Positions 4,428 through 52,746 of a DNA stretch of 52,746 nt are shown here, piece by piece. The translations under genes and the position numbers were made by a program. This DNA is from Vampirovibrionales bacterium. Its GTDB lineage: Bacteria; Cyanobacteriota; Vampirovibrionia; Vampirovibrionales; JAJTHC01. The notes beneath the pieces are model-generated. The model did not search any database, had not been told where the DNA came from, and saw nothing but the letters and a program-made list of their open reading frames with translations. Every line of letters starts with the position of its first letter. The stretch's first letter is position 1. The stretch lies in assembly GCA_947458095.1 (NCBI GenBank), contig CANGYO010000001.1, positions 70,414-123,159 on the forward strand, in the 5' to 3' direction.

Positions 4428-4467
4428 TGCTTAGGCTCCTTCAGGTTTTTTGAATAATAAAACTAAA

Positions 4468-4519
4468 AATCGTAGCGACAATGAAGACGCCATACGAGGT
4501 TTAAACTGTGAAAAGGTAT
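4468..4519 (+). repeat. Remnant of the 148-bp repeat family (copy D, right end)
   Basis: The segment matches the right third of the complete copies at 35002 and 49645: it shares CGTAGCGACAAYGAAGACG, a degenerate TTTAAA stretch and the GGTAT terminus. Only this end survives, squeezed between pilB and pilC. Confidence 0.65.
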
Positions 4520-4521
4520 CA

Positions 4522-6318
4522 TTAGCGACTGCCTCCTCTAAAAGGTCCTAAGACCCTTTCAATTTCAGCGAAGTCGACTTTTCCTTCCATGATTTTTGTT
4601 CTGGCACACACGCCTAAAGAAATCATGCCACGTTTCATGGCGGTATCTTCTATTTCCAATTCATTGGCTTGAGACGCAATTAAATGACGTAGTTCTCGAT
4701 CAATCATCATGATTTCATAAAGTCCTGTACGTCCAAAATAGCCTGAATCCTTACACATTTCACAACCTTTCGCCGTATAAATAATTAAGGATTCTTCTGG
4801 GGCGGGAGGGGTGGTATGGTATTCGTATAAAATCTCTTTCTGCTCTTCAGTGGCTTCGTGGGCTTCCTTACAATGTGGACACAAGGCTCGTGTGAGTCGT
4901 TGAGCAATGACGCCGTTTACGGCGGCAGAAATTAAACTACTGGATGCCCCCATTTCAAGCATACGGGTAATGGTGGTGGCGGTTGAGTTGGCGTGAATGG
5001 TAGAGAAAACCAAGTGACCTGTCAACGCTGCGTGAATCCCTGCTTCTAGGGTTTCATAGTCACGAATTTCTCCCACCATAATTACGTCAGGGTCTTGGCG
5101 TAATAAGGCTCTCATTGAACTGGCGAAGGTGAAATCGGCTTTGGCATTAACTTGCGATTGGTTGAGTCCTTCAATTTTTAATTCAACAGGGTCTTCAACG
5201 GTCGACACGTTAATGAGTTCACTGTTAATTTTATTCATAATCGTGTACAACGTGGTGGACTTCCCCGAACCCGTTGGCCCACAAACGAGTACAATGCCGT
5301 AAGGGGCTTTGTAAAGGAGTTCAATTTTATGGGCATCTTCTGGCGTAAAGCCTAGCTTGGTGAAATCGGTGACGGTGGCGGAAGGGCGAAGAATCCGCAT
5401 AACCATTTTTTCACGCCCTTCGGTGACAGGAAGGGTGTTGACACGAAAATTGTATTCTACCTTCTTATAGTTGATGGACATACGTCCATCTTGCGGACGC
5501 CGACGATCTGAAATGTCCATTTTCGCCATAACTTTAAGGCGGGTAAGAACCGCACCTTCCATGTTTTGGGGGATATCCAAGACTTCTTTTAAGACACCAT
5601 CGGAACGAAAACGCACCACATAATGCCCTTCTCGTGGTTCGATGTGAATATCAGACGCCCCTTGAACAACGCCTTGCACGAGCAGTGAGTTTACAAAACG
5701 CACCAAAGGATCGCTCGTGTCTTGGATTTCGGCTTCACCCATGGCTCGAATGTTGTCGAGCCGTTGGGCTTGTGCAGACAACTTCACTTGACTTGCACTA
5801 GCGAGCTGGTCTAATAAATCACGCGTGGCGTCTTTGTTGCCTCTGGCTCTTAACGCTTGCTGGGCTTCAAATTTAAGCATCCAATGACGATAGTCCATCG
5901 GCAAGGTAGACACAATCTGAGGACGCGTTCCTTTTAAAAACGTCACTTCTTCTATCGCTGAGGCATCGGTCGGATCCACCATCGCAATAACCAAGCGTCC
6001 ATGTGAGTTGGAAACAGGCACAAGGTAGTTTTCTTCAATAATTTCTTCAGGAATAAGTTCAAGCAATTCTGCATTAGGTTGCACATTTTCCAAAGAATAA
6101 TATTTCGTGGGAAAGCATTTACCAATCAGCTGTACTAATTCTTCTCGTGTTAAAATACCTTCTTTTAAAAACTGTTCATCTAACGTAATTTTGTCTCGTT
6201 CAGAACGTTCCATAATCGTGACGAGCAATTCAGGTTTGATGTTTTTGACTTCTTGCACATATTTAATCACACTTTGAAGAAAAATACTGGCACTTCCTTC
6301 AACGACTCCGAGCGACAA
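4522..6318 (-). CDS. pilB: Type IV pilus assembly ATPase PilB (TTG start)
   Basis: PilB is the hexameric ATPase that drives pilus extension. Visible are an N-terminal MshEN/GspE-N-like domain (about 20-150), the Walker A motif GPTGSGKST (about 350-358), the Asp box and Walker B region DPDVIMVGEIRD (about 412-423), the His box (TGHLVFSTIHANS) and the zinc-binding CPHC...CEMC pairs near the C terminus (numbering from the upstream GTG). An upstream in-frame GTG at 6327 overlaps the strong AGGAGGTG ribosome site, so translation probably starts at the TTG at 6318 (598 aa). It lies between the secretin and pilC genes on the same strand. Family assignment is secure; PilB rather than GspE is chosen from context. 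Confidence 0.94.
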   Translation of the reverse strand: MSLGVVEGSASIFLQSVIKYVQEVKNIKPELLVTIMERSERDKITLDEQFLKEGILTREELVQLIGKCFPTKYYSLENVQPNAELLELIPEEIIEENYLVPVSNSHGRLVIAMVDPTDASAIEEVTFLKGTRPQIVSTLPMDYRHWMLKFEAQQALRARGNKDATRDLLDQLASASQVKLSAQAQRLDNIRAMGEAEIQDTSDPLVRFVNSLLVQGVVQGASDIHIEPREGHYVVRFRSDGVLKEVLDIPQNMEGAVLTRLKVMAKMDISDRRRPQDGRMSINYKKVEYNFRVNTLPVTEGREKMVMRILRPSATVTDFTKLGFTPEDAHKIELLYKAPYGIVLVCGPTGSGKSTTLYTIMNKINSELINVSTVEDPVELKIEGLNQSQVNAKADFTFASSMRALLRQDPDVIMVGEIRDYETLEAGIHAALTGHLVFSTIHANSTATTITRMLEMGASSSLISAAVNGVIAQRLTRALCPHCKEAHEATEEQKEILYEYHTTPPAPEESLIIYTAKGCEMCKDSGYFGRTGLYEIMMIDRELRHLIASQANELEIEDTAMKRGMISLGVCARTKIMEGKVDFAEIERVLGPFRGGSR

Positions 6319-6360: not shown

Positions 6361-8652
6361 TTACTTAATTGTTTTACCAAAGGTACGGCTATAGCCACCA
6401 ATGTAGTCATTGTAAGGGGTGACGCTATAAGGGTCTTCCGTTTTGGCTTGATGACGTTTATGAGCTTTTTTCGTACTCGGTGTATTTGCAACGTCTTTGG
6501 GGTCTGGCATCACGTAACGACCTGTTTCAATTTTGAGTTCACCTCCTTTTTCACCCATGACTTTTACGTCGGAAGGGGTGACAGGCGTACCTGTTCGACC
6601 ATGTTGGGGAAGGGTCAAGGCATCTGAATCAGAAGCGGGTTTGGGGTTTCCATCAAAGTAAGGCGAATTGATGTCTTCTTTCAAAATGTGAGGCGTCACT
6701 AGAACAACGAGTTCCGTTCGTTGAGTCGTGTTACCTGCAGAAGTTGTGGCACGGAACATGGCCCCCACAATGGGTAAATTAGCAAGCCCAGGGATTTTGT
6801 CCCATGATTCGCGACGCGTATCTCTCAGCAACCCACCAATGGCGAGGGTTTGACCGTCTTTAACACGGGCAGACGCTATGGTAAACTCACGGTTAGAAAC
6901 CTCAGGGGCACTGACGGCTCCATTGCCGCCTTCTTTAAGGGCAATCAATTGTGTGACCGAAGGTTTTAACGCCATGGTAACATTACCGTCATTGGTAATG
7001 ACGGGGGTTAAATCGAGTTGAATCCCTACTTCTTGACTGTTGGCGGTCCAAGTCACCACTGGCACCCCAGCCATAGGCACGGTGATTTGTGAGGTAAAAT
7101 AGACAATGGTATCCGTAATACTCACGCTGGAAGTCGTGCCGTCGACCGCAATAAGCGTGGGATTCGCCAAGATTTTAGCTTTGGTGTCATTATTATTAAA
7201 GTTAAAGCCTATGCCAGGGATTCGAAATTTTCCTACAGATCCGTTATCAGAACCACCACCCAAAAGGCTTAAAGGCTTGCCTCCATAAGTAAAAGGTGAA
7301 CCTGTCAATGTAGCAATCTGAAACTCTCCAAACCCAAACGTTCCGTTTGTAATGGGTTGCATGACCTTGGTGTTGGATTTCGTGAGTTCCACCAAAGAGA
7401 CTTCAATCATCACCTGCGGACGAGCCACATCGAGTTCATGAATCAATTCTTCCACCAAGTGTAACTGTTCAGGTGTGCCGTAAACGGTTACTGTGCCTGT
7501 GGCATGGTTAGGTACCATTGAAAACCCACCACGCACATAAGAAGCACTCCCACCAGCTGCACCGCCAGCTGCACCACCAGCCGCACCGCCACCAGCTGCA
7601 CCGCCAGCACCACCACCAGCTGCACCGCCAGCACCACCACCAGCTGCACCGCCAGCACCACCGCCAGCACCACCGCCAGCACCACCACCAGCTCCACCGC
7701 CAGCACCACCGCCAGCACCACCACCAGCTCCACCGCCAGCACCACCACCAGCTGCACCGCCAGCACCACCGCCAGCACCACCACCAGCTCCACCGCCAGC
7801 ACCACCGCCAGCTGCACCACCAGCACCACCGCCAGCTGCACCACCAGCTCCACCCGCTGCTGCCCAACCTGCGGTGAGTGTGGTAAATACACTCAAAGCA
7901 ATCGTGGTTTCATTGCCATGCATAATTTTAAAGACTTTACGGTTACGAGGAATATCAATTTGTGGCAAAAGCTCTTCAATCAACTCCACTTCACGATCGG
8001 TTGCCACGACCAATAAACTATTGGTATTGGGGTCAAAGGTTGCCACTGCGGCATTATTGGTACCAGGTTTATTGGCGGCAAAAATGGTTTGATTCAATTG
8101 CGTAGAAACCTGTCCCGCATCTCTATATTTAATGGGAATTACTTTAAATATCTTAGCATTTAAGGAACGGGCATTGGTGGTGGCGGTATTGGCAACTACA
8201 ATTGTATTACCTTCTTGCGTATAGCTTAACCCACCTGTGATAAAAATATATTCTAACGCCTTATTGACGCTGATATTTTTAATATCCACCGTCATCACCC
8301 CTGACACGGATTCATCGACAATAATGTTGAAATGCCCTTGTTCCGCCAGCAATTGTAAAATATCGACAATGCTGGTATTTCTTAAGTTTAAATCCACCCG
8401 AGCCGATTCAGGAGCCACTTTAATCCCCTTGAAAATACTGACAGGCTTATGGGAAAGCTGTTCTGTCGGTAAAATCGAAACAGGGTAATTGGTCGCAGAC
8501 GCTTGGGGTAAGAGCAAACTCATAAAAGGGTTGAACAGTCCTAAAATCAGTGCCATCGCACCGATGGACGTCCAGCCAAAGTGAAGCCCTTTGAAAGGTA
8601 AATGTGTTCGAGTAGTGCGAGGGTTTGGAAAGGAAGGAAAGGAAAACGTCAT
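6361..8652 (-). CDS. pilQ: Type IV pilus secretin PilQ with Gly/Ala-rich insertion
   Basis: Outer-membrane secretin of 763 residues. An N-terminal hydrophobic segment (about 27-53, ending ASA) is the likely signal. An STN/N0-like domain follows (about 82-137, DILQLLAEQGHFNIIVD), then an N1-type domain (about 168-230), then a second N-type domain (about 235-410) split by about 100 residues of almost pure Gly and Ala (266-368). The C-terminal secretin domain (about 410-660) shows IPGLANLPIVGAMF and ELVVLVTPHIL, typical of GspD/PilQ. The tail beyond 665 is charged. The gene sits between the lipoprotein and pilB. The low-complexity insertion is much longer than loops usually seen in secretins. 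Confidence 0.92.
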   Translation of the reverse strand: MTFSFPSFPNPRTTRTHLPFKGLHFGWTSIGAMALILGLFNPFMSLLLPQASATNYPVSILPTEQLSHKPVSIFKGIKVAPESARVDLNLRNTSIVDILQLLAEQGHFNIIVDESVSGVMTVDIKNISVNKALEYIFITGGLSYTQEGNTIVVANTATTNARSLNAKIFKVIPIKYRDAGQVSTQLNQTIFAANKPGTNNAAVATFDPNTNSLLVVATDREVELIEELLPQIDIPRNRKVFKIMHGNETTIALSVFTTLTAGWAAAGGAGGAAGGGAGGAAGGGAGGGAGGGAGGGAGGAAGGGAGGGAGGGAGGGAGGGAGGGAGGGAGGGAGGAAGGGAGGAAGGGAGGAAGGGAAGGAAGGAAGGSASYVRGGFSMVPNHATGTVTVYGTPEQLHLVEELIHELDVARPQVMIEVSLVELTKSNTKVMQPITNGTFGFGEFQIATLTGSPFTYGGKPLSLLGGGSDNGSVGKFRIPGIGFNFNNNDTKAKILANPTLIAVDGTTSSVSITDTIVYFTSQITVPMAGVPVVTWTANSQEVGIQLDLTPVITNDGNVTMALKPSVTQLIALKEGGNGAVSAPEVSNREFTIASARVKDGQTLAIGGLLRDTRRESWDKIPGLANLPIVGAMFRATTSAGNTTQRTELVVLVTPHILKEDINSPYFDGNPKPASDSDALTLPQHGRTGTPVTPSDVKVMGEKGGELKIETGRYVMPDPKDVANTPSTKKAHKRHQAKTEDPYSVTPYNDYIGGYSRTFGKTIK
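7550..7856 (-). repeat. Gly/Ala-encoding low-complexity repeat in pilQ
   Basis: About 307 bp are built from GGC/GGT/GGA and GCA/GCT codons in imperfect units of 9, 12 and 15 bp. Being multiples of three, gains or losses would keep the frame. The base skew leaves other frames open on both strands, which produces long false reading frames. Confidence 0.9.
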
Positions 8653-20489: not shown

Positions 20490-20538
20490 GAGGTAGACCT
20501 TTTTGTTTAAGTTTAAGGGGACGGTTATAATCATGTAT

Positions 20539-20679
20539 AGCGTTTTAAATAATCAACCATACTTGTCTCTTCGTTATCGCTCGGGTTCTCGATGTGCTTA
20601 TGTACGTCTCTGTACAATCACACATCTGCGAGTCTAGGCTCCTAGAATAGCCTAAGTCTGCTTAATTATTTAAAACGCT
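20539..20679 (-). repeat. 148-bp repeat family, copy C (variant ends)
   Basis: On the minus strand its core (ATTCTAGGAGCCTAGA through CACATCGAGAACCCGAGCGA) is nearly identical to copies at 35002 and 49645. The ends differ: they form their own 18-bp inverted repeat starting AGCGTTTTAAATAAT, with one mismatch. A conserved core with different but still paired ends suggests a folded structure is maintained. Confidence 0.75.
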
Positions 20680-20704
20680 AAACTCGACTATAAATAAAGA
20701 AAAA

Positions 20705-20778
20705 CACCCCGAACAAGATTCGAACTTGTGACCGTCCGCTTAGAAGGCGGATGCTCTATCCAGCTGAGCTATCGAGGC
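20705..20778 (-). tRNA. tRNA-Arg (anticodon TCT)
   Basis: All four arms can be drawn on the minus strand: acceptor GCCTCGA with TCGGGGT (two G-U pairs), D stem GCTC/GAGC, anticodon stem TCCGC/GCGGA around loop CTTCTAA (anticodon TCT at positions 34-36), variable loop CGGTC, and T stem ACAAG/CTTGT around TTCGAAT. The 3' CCA is not encoded. Confidence 0.97.
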
Positions 20779-24240: not shown

Positions 24241-24315
24241 ATACCATTTAAACGAATGAAAAGCGACTAGGCTCCTAGAATACACCTGTACGCTATTTAA
24301 ACTGTGAACTGGTAT
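24241..24315 (-). repeat. 148-bp repeat family, copy E (internal deletion, 75 bp)
   Basis: Read on the minus strand it keeps the left terminus ATACCAGTTCACAGTTTAAA, then ATTCTAGGAGCCTAG, and then jumps to a short right end TTTAAATGGTAT. The long folding core is missing. Confidence 0.7.
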
Positions 24316-26172: not shown

Positions 26173-26189
26173 ATTAAGGATGCTTTGTG

Positions 26190-26531
26190 ATGACTACGTT
26201 AGAAAACTGCTTATTTTGTAAGATTGTGGCTGGCACCATTCCTGCTCAACTCGTGTTTCAGGACGAAGACATTACGGCTTTTTATGATGTGAATCCACAA
26301 GCCCCTGTGCATGTTTTGATTATTGCCAATACGCATACGGCGAGCCATTTAGAAACCGACGATCCCACGATTTATGCCCAAGTCTTGGCTGGAGCCAAAA
26401 AAGTGGCTCAACAGCTTACACTCACGGATTATCGCCTGGTCATTAACAATGGAGCAGGTGCGGGGCAGAGTGTGTTTCACCTGCATGTGCATTTAATGGC
26501 AGGGCGTCCGTTTGCGTGGCCTGCAGGTTAA
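26190..26531 (+). CDS. HIT-family (HINT-like) nucleotide hydrolase
   Basis: 113 residues with the HINT family outline: N-terminal CLFCKIVAGTIPA, the substrate loop VHVLIIANTH, and the histidine triad HLHVHL (near residue 97-102) that hydrolyses purine nucleoside phosphoramidates. AAGGA nine bases upstream supports ATG 26190; GTG 26187 is equally possible. It ends where a 26-bp repeat remnant begins, against the convergent ferredoxin-NADP reductase gene. Confidence 0.92.
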   Translation: MTTLENCLFCKIVAGTIPAQLVFQDEDITAFYDVNPQAPVHVLIIANTHTASHLETDDPTIYAQVLAGAKKVAQQLTLTDYRLVINNGAGAGQSVFHLHVHLMAGRPFAWPAG

Positions 26532-26556
26532 TACCATTTAAACGGTGAACTGCTAT
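26531..26556 (+). repeat. 148-bp repeat family, minimal remnant (copy F)
   Basis: Only the two termini remain, ATACCATTTAAAC joined to a GTGAACTGCTAT end, and they exactly fill the gap between two convergent genes; the stop codons of both genes share its outer bases. Confidence 0.5.
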
Positions 26557-34964: not shown

Positions 34965-35001
34965 TATAGCAGCTTATAGAAAAGGCGATAAGGGGATTGT
35001 T

Positions 35002-35149
35002 ATACCAGTTCCCAGTTTGAATAGCGTATAGGCGGATTCTAGGAGCCTAGACTCGCAGATGTGTGAGGTGTACAGAGACGTACATAAGCACATCGAGAAT
35101 CGTAGCGACAACGAAGACGTCAGACGCTATTTAAAATGGGAATTGGTAT
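35002..35149 (+). repeat. 148-bp repeat family, copy A (complete)
   Basis: Terminal inverted repeats of about 26 bp start ATACCAGTTCCCAG and end TGGGAATTGGTAT. The core can fold as a nested stem: GATTCT with AGAATC, CTC with GAG, GATGTG with CACATC, TGTAC with GTACA around loop AGAGAC, plus a local hairpin TCTAGG-AG-CCTAGA. It is nearly identical to the copy at 49645. Its right end touches the rnhB stop codon. Confidence 0.85.
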
Positions 35150-35946
35150 TACTTGAATCCGCCAATACTATAGCTGGGACGATGATAAGCCGTAAGACCT
35201 CGCTGTTTTATGGCTTGACGATGTTCTAGGGTGGCATACCCCATATTACTTGCCCAACCATACTCAGGAAAATCCATCGCCACTGAACGCACCCATTCGT
35301 CCCGATGCTCTTTGGCAACAATGGATGCCATTGCAATTAAGGCACTTTGAGCATCTCCTTTTACAATGGGGCTTTGCTGATGCGACGTAATACTGGGGAT
35401 GCGGTCTCGACCGTCCATTAAATAATGACAGCGAGAGATCGCCTCTTCTTCAAGGTGAGCAAACAACGTGTCAATCGCACGTTGCACGGCAAGCATCGAA
35501 GCCCCGATGATATTATGCTCAGCAATTTCTTCAGGCGTGGCTTGCCCAATGCCGACATGACAAAGATCTAAAATGGCTGGTAACAAAGCGTGTCGTTGCT
35601 TGGCGGTGAGTTTTTTAGAATCGTTAATGCCGACTAAAGACAGTCTCTCGTCTAAAACGCAAGACGAGTCAATGGACTTCCAACACACGGCAGATGCCAC
35701 CACATCGCCGATGAGGCTACCTCGTCCCACCTCATCACAGCCTACCAGTACAGTATTAGGGTCTAATGTTTGAGCCAATGCCTCGTCAAAAGCAAGCAGT
35801 CTCGTCAAGCGAGCTTCGGCGGATGCTTTACTAGATTTGACAAGTTCCTTACTGAGCAGGCGGGACTTCAAAGCAGAGTCCTCCCAATTGCCCTTGTCGC
35901 ACATCCACCAATAAGCGGTGGGCAGCCCGTTGAATATCGGCAACAC
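35149..35946 (-). CDS. rnhB: Ribonuclease HII
   Basis: RNase HII cuts RNA in RNA-DNA hybrids and single misincorporated ribonucleotides. The signature DEVGRG (71-76) carries two catalytic acids; further Asp residues follow in INDSKKL and YLMDGRD. The catalytic domain of about 195 residues is complete and is preceded by a helical N-terminal extension as in Bacillus RNase HII. The start is uncertain: GTG 35946 or TTG 35943 behind a G-rich site, or ATG 35904. In each case the gene overlaps the end of rbgA (35849) by 55-98 bp, suggesting coupled translation. Confidence 0.92.
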   Translation of the reverse strand: MLPIFNGLPTAYWWMCDKGNWEDSALKSRLLSKELVKSSKASAEARLTRLLAFDEALAQTLDPNTVLVGCDEVGRGSLIGDVVASAVCWKSIDSSCVLDERLSLVGINDSKKLTAKQRHALLPAILDLCHVGIGQATPEEIAEHNIIGASMLAVQRAIDTLFAHLEEEAISRCHYLMDGRDRIPSITSHQQSPIVKGDAQSALIAMASIVAKEHRDEWVRSVAMDFPEYGWASNMGYATLEHRQAIKQRGLTAYHRPSYSIGGFK

Positions 35947-36838: not shown

Positions 36839-36918
36839 CGTCATTGCGAGTGAAACGAAGCAATCTGTCCACCACTTGCGGCGTTTTTACAGATTGCCAC
36901 GCTACGCTCGCAATGACG
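36839..36918. repeat. Palindromic hairpin element H1
   Basis: An 80-bp inverted repeat with ends CGTCATTGCGAG / CTCGCAATGACG and an inner pairing between GCAATCTG and CAGATTGC. Elements of this look are widespread in intergenic regions of many bacteria. Nearly the same element is at 41395. Confidence 0.8.
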
Positions 36919-41146: not shown

Positions 41147-41255
41147 GACACACGAAAGGCGATTTCTGGCACACAAAACCCTCGTTCTTGTCACACGAAA
41201 CCTGCTTTTTTGACACATAAAACCTTTGTTTCTGACACACGAAACCCTGTTTTTG
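41147..41255 (+). repeat. Tandem array of a 22-bp unit, locus 1 (5 units)
   Basis: Five consecutive units of 21-22 bp. The first half is constant (GACACA, then C/T, A/G, AAA); the second half varies in sequence but stays T-rich. The array begins 11 bp after a stop codon. The period is not a multiple of three, so no frame repeats in register and the array is unlikely to be coding. Confidence 0.85.
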
Positions 41256-41394
41256 GGGATCCTTCACATGCGTTCAGGATGACGAGTTCAAGTGTGGTCT
41301 TCAATTTTCAAGGGACTACTCTTTTTTATTGTGACACGTTTTCAACGTGTCGCCTAGTGCTGAAAACCCACGTTTTATAGAAGGAAGTGAGTTT
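41256..41394 (+). repeat. Conserved tail of the 22-bp array (locus 1)
   Basis: The sequence from GGATCCTTCACATGCGTTC to about 41376 is shared with the tail at 52364-52490, including TCAATTTTCAA, ACTACTCTTTTT, GTCGCCT, TAGTGCT and ACGTTTT. It includes half of an H-type hairpin (to about 41284) and a perfect 8-bp stem GACACGTT/AACGTGTC (41333-41351) found only here. Confidence 0.65.
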
Positions 41395-41473
41395 CGTCAT
41401 TGCGAGTGAAACGAAGCAACCTGTAAACCAATGCGACGTTTCTACAGATTGCCACGCTACGCTCGCAATGACG
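41395..41473. repeat. Palindromic hairpin element H2
   Basis: A 79-bp inverted repeat with CGTCATTGCGAG / CTCGCAATGACG ends, almost identical to H1 at 36839. It lies between the tail of the 22-bp array and the leader of the EF-hand gene. Confidence 0.8.
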
Positions 41474-45569: not shown

Positions 45570-45605
45570 TTATACTTTTTAGATAAAAGTGTTAATTTAA
45601 AGAAT

Positions 45606-45920
45606 CGTTGCACAAGCCGACGTCCAAGCACTAAATCCGAGCGGGTGAGCGAACTGCGAATCCCCGAGCGATTTTGCGGACGTCCCACGAGTAGAAAGTG
45701 GAGCAAGCGAAAAGGATGAGAAAGGGGGTGGATTTTTAAGGAGGGGGAAAGAGAAGGAGAGCCGCAACAATTTCCTTTTCTTTCCCCCTCCTTGAATCGC
45801 CTTTGGAGGTTTGGAGGCTTTTGGCGACGCAAAAGTCTCCAAGCACCAGCGTTAAACGGAGCTAAAAACCACAAAATAGACAATCTTAAAAAAAATCACT
45901 TCTTAATTACAAAACACTAT
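45606..45920 (+). repeat. R element, copy 1 (about 315 bp)
   Basis: It starts CGTTGCACAAGC and ends AAAACACTATA. It contains GACGTCC...GGACGTC, a long inverted repeat AAGGAGGGGGAAA / TTTCCCCCTCCTT, and a second stem in the last third. Copies at 47966 and 52563 share the start, both stems and most of the sequence in the same orientation. No transposase and no convincing protein is encoded. Confidence 0.85.
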
Positions 45921-47835: not shown

Positions 47836-47965
47836 GGCAACTTTCTACAAAATTAGAGATACTTATTTAGTATTATGGCGGAAAGGCGTATTTTTATCAA
47901 GGCTTCTCCTGCATTAAGGCGATTGTCGAAGATGATAGAGCGATTTCAAGTTGTGATGGTTAAAC

Positions 47966-48277
47966 CGTTGCACAAGCAGGCGTCCAAGCACTAAATCCGA
48001 GCGGGTGAGCGAATTGCGAATCCCCGAGCGATTTTGCGGACGTCGTGGCAAGGAATGATGCGACGAGGTGGGTCAAAAGGGGGAGGATTTTCAAGGAGGG
48101 GGAAATGAGGGAGGAGAAACGCAATGCGTCCTTCCTTCCCCCTCCTTGAACCGCCTTTGGGGGTTTGGGGAGTCTTTGGCGGAGCAAAGACCCCCAAGCA
48201 CCAGCTCAACACGGAGCTAGAAATCCAAAAAAACAGGGGATTTTAAACATACCACTTCTTTAATATAAAACACTATA
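47966..48277 (+). repeat. R element, copy 2 (about 312 bp)
   Basis: Same start, stems and end as copy 1 and the same orientation. Here the central stem is a perfect 14-bp TCAAGGAGGGGGAA / TTCCCCCTCCTTGA with inner loop bases GCAATGCG. It lies between the kinase gene and the oxidoreductase gene. Confidence 0.85.
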
Positions 48278-49570: not shown

Positions 49571-49644
49571 ATGGACAAAAATGGCATGAGTAAAAGTCCA
49601 AAATGCTTCAAGATCATGACGAGCAGGATTTTATAGACGGCTTC

Positions 49645-49792
49645 ATACCAGTTCATAGTTTGAATAGCGTATAGGCGGATTCTAGGAGCCTAGACTCGCA
49701 GATGTGTGAGGTGTACAGAGACGACCATAAGCACATCGAGAACCCGAGCAACAACGAAGACGTCAGACGCTATTTAAAATGGGAACTGGTAT
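49645..49792 (+). repeat. 148-bp repeat family, copy B (complete)
   Basis: The same length and orientation as the copy at 35002, with few differences (for example GACGACCA for GACGTACA in the apical stem). Ends are ATACCAGTTC and GAACTGGTAT. It lies 140 bp upstream of an orphan gene. Confidence 0.85.
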
Positions 49793-49930
49793 CATTGCAA
49801 ATGTAACAGATGTGTCATCCCTAGCACAGAAGGTTCTTAAGATTGTTTTAATACTTATATAAGCTTAATCTCAATGCAAGATCTTTAAACCCCTCTGTTT
49901 TAACAACCCTAGTAAAGGATGAACCTCTCT

Positions 49931-50684: not shown

Positions 50685-52145
50685 ATGCCTAAGCCTAAAG
50701 CTCGTTTGAGCCACCCAATTTGGTTGCCATGGTTACGCTTATTTAAACAGGGGTATCGCTTATTCGCTTCGATGGAATTGGCGATTGTGTTACTTATTGC
50801 GTTGGCACTGGCGTGTATTGTGGGCAGCTTAATGCCCCAAGAAAGCTTGGTGAATCTTGCCGATATTCAGCGTCAATTTGGCAATGCAACGCCTTACCTT
50901 AAAGCGATGGGTTTTTTCAATGTGTTTTATAGTACCTGGTTTTTTAGCTTAGAAGCCCTGTTCTTTGTGTCGATTGTACTCGGTTCTTTTCGATGGTTGC
51001 GTCCTGCGTGGCGTTCGATTACCCTAAAAACCCTGATGAATGCGACCCATATTCAAAGTTGTTCAACCGCGCGCAACATAAGTATCTCCCCTGCGGTGGC
51101 TCCTCCTGAAACGCTGGCGACTTTAACGCTGGCGTTAAAACAAGAAGGCTTTAGCATCACGCCTTCAAGCCCCAAGCACCCATGGAGCCTTTACGCCCAA
51201 CGGGGCTGGCTCGGACGAGTCGGCCCAATGATTACGCACTTGGGCATTGCACTTACCTTGTTGGCGGGTTTGTACGGAGCCTTTAGTAATTTTACGGCAC
51301 AAGCGACTTTAAAACCAAATGAATCTTTATATATAAGTGAAGCGGATTCCTTCCAAACGTCTACGAATCCGCCTTATTGGCTGGGTCGTATTCCTGAATG
51401 GAAGTTCAAAGTCACGGATTTTGATATTGAGTTTCAACAAAAATCGCCGTTGATTCCCAAGCAATTCACCTCCACTTTGCAGATTTTAGATCCTTTGACG
51501 GGGGAAATGCTGGCGGAAGGGCAAAGTTCCGTGAATCATCCCTTTGTTTATGATGGCGTGACCTTTTATCAAGCCCAATTTTCACCGACCACCTTGCATG
51601 ATGTGTGGATTGATCGTGTCCCTTTGCGTATGGATGCGTCTCAAACGCTGGCGGGGCGTCCGTATGCGGTGCATCCTGTCAATGCCACGACTCGTTTATT
51701 TATGTTTCCCTTGGGGCGTTTTACCGATGGCTTACCCACCAACCGCTTGCATGTATTGCTGGAGCGTAACGGCGTTTTACAAGGGTATCAAAAGGGCTTT
51801 AGTGAAGCGAATAACACCATACTTTCCTTAGAAGAAGGGGGTAAAGCGGGGATTCTGGGGGGGGTAAGTCTTCAATACAAAAAAGCGGTGATGGCAACGG
51901 GTTTGCAGATGAAATACGCGCCTGAAACGGCTTTTCTATACATGAGTTTATTGATTTTGACTTTGGGTTGTGTGTTGAGCTTTATTCCGCATCACCAAGT
52001 GTGGTTTGCCTTGTATTCAGAAGAGGGAGAAGGCAAGGCTCCACCGACCGAATTGTGGTGGTATACGAAGGCGAAGAAGCGTCATTTTGCCTTAGAAGAG
52101 GCGTTGACCCGTTGCTTAGCGAAGATGCCTCGTGCCTTGCGTTAG
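50685..52145 (+). CDS. resB: Cytochrome c biogenesis protein ResB/Ccs1
   Basis: 486 residues with the ResB/Ccs1 layout: three N-terminal membrane helices (ELAIVLLIALALACIVGSLMPQ, a second near 75-100, RVGPMITHLGIALTLLAG near 180), a large extracytoplasmic domain (about 205-415, with VYDGVTFYQAQF), and a fourth helix near 425-450 (FLYMSLLILTLGCVLSFIPH). Together with CcsA it forms the system II haem-delivery complex for c-type cytochromes, as in cyanobacteria and chloroplasts. CcsA is not in the window. ATG 50685 is preferred over TTG 50673, which lies on the ribosome site. Confidence 0.93.
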   Translation: MPKPKARLSHPIWLPWLRLFKQGYRLFASMELAIVLLIALALACIVGSLMPQESLVNLADIQRQFGNATPYLKAMGFFNVFYSTWFFSLEALFFVSIVLGSFRWLRPAWRSITLKTLMNATHIQSCSTARNISISPAVAPPETLATLTLALKQEGFSITPSSPKHPWSLYAQRGWLGRVGPMITHLGIALTLLAGLYGAFSNFTAQATLKPNESLYISEADSFQTSTNPPYWLGRIPEWKFKVTDFDIEFQQKSPLIPKQFTSTLQILDPLTGEMLAEGQSSVNHPFVYDGVTFYQAQFSPTTLHDVWIDRVPLRMDASQTLAGRPYAVHPVNATTRLFMFPLGRFTDGLPTNRLHVLLERNGVLQGYQKGFSEANNTILSLEEGGKAGILGGVSLQYKKAVMATGLQMKYAPETAFLYMSLLILTLGCVLSFIPHHQVWFALYSEEGEGKAPPTELWWYTKAKKRHFALEEALTRCLAKMPRALR

Positions 52146-52164
52146 CGATAAAACAAGGGTTTTC

Positions 52165-52296
52165 GACACACAAAATACCACTTTCTGACCCACGAAACCC
52201 TTGTGTCTGACACACGAAAGTCGCTTTCTTGACACATGAAACCCTCGTTTTTGGCACACAAAACCCGCTGTTTTGACACATAAAACTCGGCTTTCT
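52165..52296 (+). repeat. Tandem array of a 22-bp unit, locus 2 (6 units)
   Basis: Six exact-length 22-bp units, plus a partial seventh to about 52306, begin 20 bp after the resB stop. The constant half GACACA followed by a YRAAA-like run matches locus 1 at 41147. The second half differs between units. Confidence 0.88.
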
Positions 52297-52317
52297 GACA
52301 CACACTAATCTAAAAAA

Positions 52318-52390
52318 CGTCATGTTGAGTGTAACGAAACATCTCCTCCCCTCTTTTGGGGGAGATCCTTCACGTGCGTTCAGGATGACG
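52318..52390. repeat. Palindromic hairpin element H3
   Basis: A 73-bp inverted repeat with ends CGTCATGTTGAGTG and CGTTCAGGATGACG and an inner ATCTCCTCCCC / GGGGGAGAT stem. It is related to H1 and H2 in its outer bases (CGTCAT, GAGTG, AACGAA) but with a different inside. Confidence 0.75.
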
Positions 52391-52500
52391 CATTCAGGTT
52401 GGTTCATCAATTTTCAAAGAACTACTCTTTTTCATTATGACAAAAGGAGTCGCCTTTGAATAGTGCTTAAAACCGACGTTTTTGCTCCCCTTACTTTAGT
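52391..52500 (+). repeat. Conserved tail of the 22-bp array (locus 2)
   Basis: The sequence matches the tail at 41285-41380: TCAATTTTCAA, ACTACTCTTTTT, GTCGCCT, TAGTGCT and CGACGTTTTT in the same order and spacing. Confidence 0.6.
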
Positions 52501-52562
52501 CCTTTACGAAGGGGGAGTGACAATTTATGGTAATTTATAGATAAACATGGAGATGTTTAACT

Positions 52563-52746
52563 TGTTGCATAAGCAGGCGTCCAAGCACTAAATCCGAGCG
52601 GGTGAGCGTACTGCGAATCCCCGAGCGATTTTGCGGACGTCGTGCAAAGGAATGATGCGAGGAGGTGGGTCAAAAGGGGGTGGATTTTTAAGGAGGGGGA
52701 AATGAGGGAGGAGAAACGCAATGCGTCCTTCCTTCCCCCTCCTTAA
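52563..52746 (+). repeat. R element, copy 3 (cut by the window end)
   Basis: The same start (TGTTGCATAAGCAGGCGTCC) and central stem AAGGAGGGGGAA / TTCCCCCTCCTT as copies 1 and 2, in the same orientation; the last third lies outside the window. Confidence 0.8.

Follow-up and report, generated by a model that had tools for sequence, protein, structure and literature searches.

The closest described counterparts of the repeat reported here come from two groups of bacteria. RUP of Streptococcus pneumoniae is a 107-bp repeat with ends like those of IS630-Spn1 (PMC3049150), and the Nezha MITE of cyanobacteria is related to ISNpu3-like elements, as far as it is cited in PMC3049150. IS630-family elements that have been studied duplicate TA upon insertion (PMC2170065). 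The open-access literature yielded nothing useful on IS630 elements with TNA or on insertion sequences of Vampirovibrio. Here we describe a repeat family in a window of 52,746 nucleotides, the whole stretch of DNA that was analysed, from a Vampirovibrionales bacterium whose genome assembly (the source genome) comprises 1.66 Mb in 94 contigs.

Repeat copies in the window and in related genomes

The original prediction described six copies, A to F, of a dispersed repeat that is 148 bp long when complete. The family is real, and all of the named copies were recovered. In BLAST and repeat searches, copies A and B share 94% identity over 148 bp, the core of C (20568-20648, minus strand) matches at 93% over 82 bp, D matches at 4468-4519 (81%), and E matches at 24267-24315 together with a left arm (90%). 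The E-values for A, B and C, 1e-75 to 1e-29, are far beyond chance. Copy F, at 26531, was found on reading of the sequence. While the repeat is confirmed, its true unit is 146 bp (TACC...GGTA) rather than 148 bp, since the outer A and T of the longer version are part of a 3-bp TNA target duplication. Likewise, the ends or core that all six copies were said to have in common are intact in A and B, but C has the core only, within other ends, and E and F mix end subtypes. The copies and the flanks of A are as follows.

Copy A, 35003..35148, plus strand: complete 146-bp type-1 MITE (TACC...GGTA)
Left target duplication of A, 35000..35002: TTA
Right target duplication of A, 35149..35151: TTA; the minus strand reads the TAA stop of an RNase HII-like ORF, 35149-35946
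Copy B, 49646..49791, plus strand: complete 146-bp type-1 MITE; duplication TCA, 49643-49645 and 49792-49794
Copy C, 20538..20690, minus strand: shared core within TAG-type IS630 ends (TAGCG.../...GACTA); TA at 20536-20537 and 20691-20692
Copy D, 4466..4518, plus strand: right part only, left truncated; right flank TCA, 4519-4521
Copy E, 24242..24314, no strand: type-2 left arm plus inverted type-1 left arm, the junction being a CTAGGCTCCTAG palindrome
Copy F, 26532..26555, no strand: 24-bp chimera of a type-2 end (TACCATTTAAACG) fused to a type-1 end (GTGAACTGCTA)

Copy C adjoins a tRNA gene (20705-20778), and the right flank of D directly adjoins the stop codon (4522-4524) of a GspE-like ORF. 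As was predicted, no transposase is found on reading the window's ORF list.

Copy counts were derived from searches and from fetched stretches of genomes. Matches occur genome-wide: a 20-base core pattern, allowing up to 3 mismatches, is found 49 times in the source genome, 141 times in a sister species (G003) and twice in a sister genus (G001), and at this threshold it is absent from genome G002; the reversed control pattern gave no match in any genome. Core matches are present in 4 of the 18 genomes of the order, all from one family. A 24-mer of the core is present in the metagenome-assembled genome Vampirovibrionales bacterium CoA8N_M69.1, probably G003 itself, and the exact 24-mer is absent from the viral contigs searched. 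Being short, devoid of a transposase gene and present in many copies, the repeat is, on these sequence features, a MITE. Its terminal inverted repeats are imperfect and approximately 24 bp long. Two contigs of the source genome end within a copy, and such repeats help account for the fragmented state of Vampirovibrionales assemblies.

We determined flank statistics for 85 distinct complete copies, drawn from the source genome and the sister species with a few from the sister genus. In 30 copies with flanks, the ATACC...GGTAT version resolves into TNA, TACC...GGTA and TNA. Across the 85 copies, T occupies position -3 in 77, A position -1 in 83, T position +1 in 85 and A position +3 in 81. TNA is present on both sides in 72 copies, compared with a frequency of 7.8% at neighbouring positions, and the two triplets are identical in 58. 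One copy (L124) is nested in another, and comparison with the uninterrupted sequence demonstrates a duplication of exactly 3 bp, TGA. Furthermore, two loci of the sister species that lack the insertion are present with it in the source genome, and hence represent empty sites. Judged from these flanks, the repeat copies are transposition products.

The middle base of TNA is not the same on the left as on the right in 21 of 84 copies, which exceeds the variation of neighbouring bases. We considered this mismatch as a sign of the insertion mechanism and rejected it: read flank by flank, several mismatched copies of the sister genus have one flank in common with other copies, which points to recombination. 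Copy L021 has a mismatched TNA, though both of its flanks match the same uninterrupted repeat. Hybrid copies are not significantly richer in TNA mismatches (among MITEs, P 0.22).

Several other repeats were observed. The window contains a 22-bp imperfect tandem unit (TGACACACRAAACCC...) in short arrays (41167-41262 and 52142-52325), a second dispersed repeat of 82-193 bp (AATCGTTGCACAAGC...GCGGACGTC) in three copies that are 93-95% identical (45603-45684, 47963-48044 and 52560-52641), and REP-like families, namely GGATCCTTCAC..TTCAGGATGACG (41255-41336 and 52361-52442) and GATTGCCACGCTACGCTCGCAATGACG (36877-36918 and 41432-41473). A GspD-like ORF at 7500-7900 carries a long Gly/Ala-rich tandem repeat of 12 bp. 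At locus L003 (1450-1700), a MITE copy lies within the loop of an inverted repeat (AACTCTCATGGTA...TACCATGAGAGTT), which may be a terminator hairpin.

Stop codons, end types and the shared core

For the 58 copies with exact duplications, we rebuilt the empty site and located ORFs of at least 70 amino acids. Ten of these copies fall exactly on an ORF stop codon, compared with 3.3 expected for random non-coding TNA at the same loci (P about 0.0009), an effect whose size is provisional because the ORF calling is crude. Eleven lie inside an ORF, compared with 46.6 expected. Since both TAA and TGA fit TNA, the duplication restores the stop. Within the window, copy A lies on the stop of the RNase HII-like ORF and copy F on that of a HIT-like ORF (26187-26531), for which the left flank of F, TAA, is the stop codon. 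A type-2 copy also lies near the RNase HII stop in the sister species, in the opposite orientation, and is most likely an independent insertion. Insertion at stop codons is a simple route by which a transposon can occupy gene ends without damage.

The TACC ends fall into three subtypes that differ at approximately bases 8-15, with both arms differing together. The arm subtypes of the 85 copies are T1/T1 in 15, T2/T2 in 42, T3/T3 in 18, mixed in 9 and unclassified in 1, so that 75 carry the same subtype on both arms. The 80-bp core is also found between ends of a different kind, TAGC.../TAGTG.... Elements collected by these TAGC/TAGTG ends are mostly 144-146 bp long, and 33 of the 39 have a TA at either side. 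Gene fragments of IS630 elements in the source genome end in a matching TTAATTATTTAAAATACTATA, and copy C of the window is of this TAG-ended, TA-flanked kind. In addition, the sister species holds hybrids in which a TACC end is paired with a TAGC end. The simplest account would be that the core was swapped between end-shells by recombination of dispersed copies through the core. A core shared in this way illustrates how a MITE may pass from one transposase to another.

Both the keeping of one core in several end-shells and the enrichment of copies on stop codons could favour another reading, in which selection mainly maintains a structured RNA or transcription-end element, with mobility secondary. 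So could the plus strand, which folds from end to end (-65.3 kcal/mol, z -9.6) and does so better than the minus strand. However, any long inverted repeat would fold likewise. Outside two fixed positions, 6 and 17, there is no excess of G-U in the plus strand, where the arms differ by A-C just as often, and the repeats match no Rfam family. An RNA-level role is not supported, and we regard this reading as very unlikely.

The original prediction had also arranged the copies as one element decaying through lengths of 148, 75 and 26 bp. Copy D is indeed a truncated copy, and E and F are shorter and carry common end sequences. However, 61 of the 85 complete copies are exactly 146 bp long, indicating that the unit being amplified hardly varies in length, and C carries different ends. 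Copies E and F are of type 2 at the left end and of type 1 at the right, and therefore are not shortened versions of A. Their flanks, TCA and TTA for E and TAA and TTA for F, do not match; F amounts to 13 bases of the type-2 end plus the type-1 end, and neither congeneric genome contains a second full-length copy of E. Thus, E and F look like products of rearrangement rather than steps of decay, while D looks like a plain truncation, the only window copy of that sort. We consider graded decay of a single element highly improbable.

A second core (CTAGGAGCCTAGATTATTTTGT...ACAAAATAATCGTAGCGACAAC) was observed in the same kind of IS630 ends at four loci of the sister species and the source genome (L036, L055, L057 and L135), and often lies nested within the first core, at TA.

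The probable transposase partner

A transposase gene with similar ends is located outside the window. The sister genus G001 contains approximately 20 copies of a 1083-bp element that has TACCAATTCCAAGTTTAAATAGCG ends and TNA flanks, and over 26-29 bp these ends share 90-92% identity with those of copy A. The element contains two overlapping frames of 149 and 196 amino acids that meet at a run of A. Its transposase has HTH domains and DDE_3 (PF13358) and matches NF033545 at 141.9 bits, compared with a curated cut-off of 100, which places it in the IS630 family. The TACC-ended copies and the 1083-bp element are flanked by TNA rather than by TA in a 2-bp duplication of the ISY100 and IS630 kind, and for this reason we describe the partner as an IS630-related variant and not as a typical IS630 member. 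In the source genome, a homologue (C30:18159-18653) has the left end TAACCATTAAACGATTAAATAGCG, which closely resembles the type-2 MITE end; on the right, another IS630 element interrupts this homologue, and the assembly contains no right end for it. The type-1 IS is known from the sister genus alone. Numerous further IS630 fragments in the source genome are located at contig ends, suggesting that multi-copy elements were probably collapsed or broken in assembly.

Elements of the IS1031 group of IS5 have a TNA target, which is why an IS5-type (DDE_Tnp_1) transposase was considered as the mover of the MITE, and a DDE_Tnp_1 gene of the source genome (C2:22161-22463) does lie directly beside a MITE copy; however, this lone gene is outside the MITE with no second TACC end to bound it, and the multi-copy element that does have matching ends and flanking TNA encodes an IS630 transposase instead, so we rejected membership of the IS5 family and give an IS5-type mover hardly any credence.

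The MITE is very probably mobilised in trans, by a transposase of the IS630 family, and a full-size IS630-family element with the same ends would most likely be what moves it. Weighing against this reading are the unequal middle base of TNA, the limitation of the type-1 IS to the sister genus and the merely similar sequence of its ends, the absent right end of the source-genome homologue, and the TA duplication of the IS630 elements that have been studied. The prediction of a non-autonomous transposon is borne out, as copies occur genome-wide, the ends are inverted, the target is duplicated and an autonomous partner exists elsewhere. In the mechanism that we propose, the transposase would bind both MITE ends, and the MITE would be excised and then inserted into a TNA site cut with a 3-bp stagger. 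Copies recombining by way of the core may have put it between TA-duplicating IS630-type ends, and would also produce hybrids such as E and F. The copies that survive are mostly outside genes and partly exactly on TAA or TGA stops, which the duplication restores.

A broader scenario, which we put forward tentatively and with some doubt, is that an IS630 subgroup shifted from TA to TNA and that several IS630 lineages, unlike in their ends and duplication lengths (TNA and TA), adopted one 80-bp core, making it one passenger moved by several transposases, with TNA insertion letting the core sit harmlessly on stops. In the TACC transposases, the second D and the E are separated by 31 residues, compared with 34 for a TATAG-type IS630 of the source genome; that the shorter spacing is tied to the cut spacing is only a guess. 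A TNA-duplicating subgroup beside TA-duplicating relatives in one genome offers a natural comparison for the determinants of cut spacing.

The sister genus was also found to have its own MITE of approximately 160 bp (L168 and L171), with TACC ends of the same kind, TNA flanks and an unrelated core.

Comparison with known systems

The MITE family is real, high in copy number, associated with an IS630-related subgroup and ordinary in kind. The features that are worth specialist attention are its unusual TNA duplication and its exchangeable core. Compared by description, RUP resembles the MITE in being a short, non-coding, high-copy repeat with ends that resemble those of a resident IS630-family element; unlike RUP, the MITE described here has a TNA duplication and a core that occurs in several end-shells. 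Nezha, likened by its description as cited, shares with the MITE the cyanobacterial phylum and a proposed IS partner. ISY100 of Synechocystis (IS630/Tc1/mariner) resembles the partner element in having an IS630-family transposase, short inverted ends and cut-and-paste transposition (PMC2170065). However, ISY100 targets and duplicates TA (PMC2170065), whereas the TACC elements duplicate TNA. Finally, BOX of S. pneumoniae is similar to the MITE in that copies are found at the extreme 3' end of genes, where the stop codon is affected (PMC3049150). In the case of BOX the stop is supplied from within the repeat, whereas for the MITE described here the duplicated target is itself the stop.
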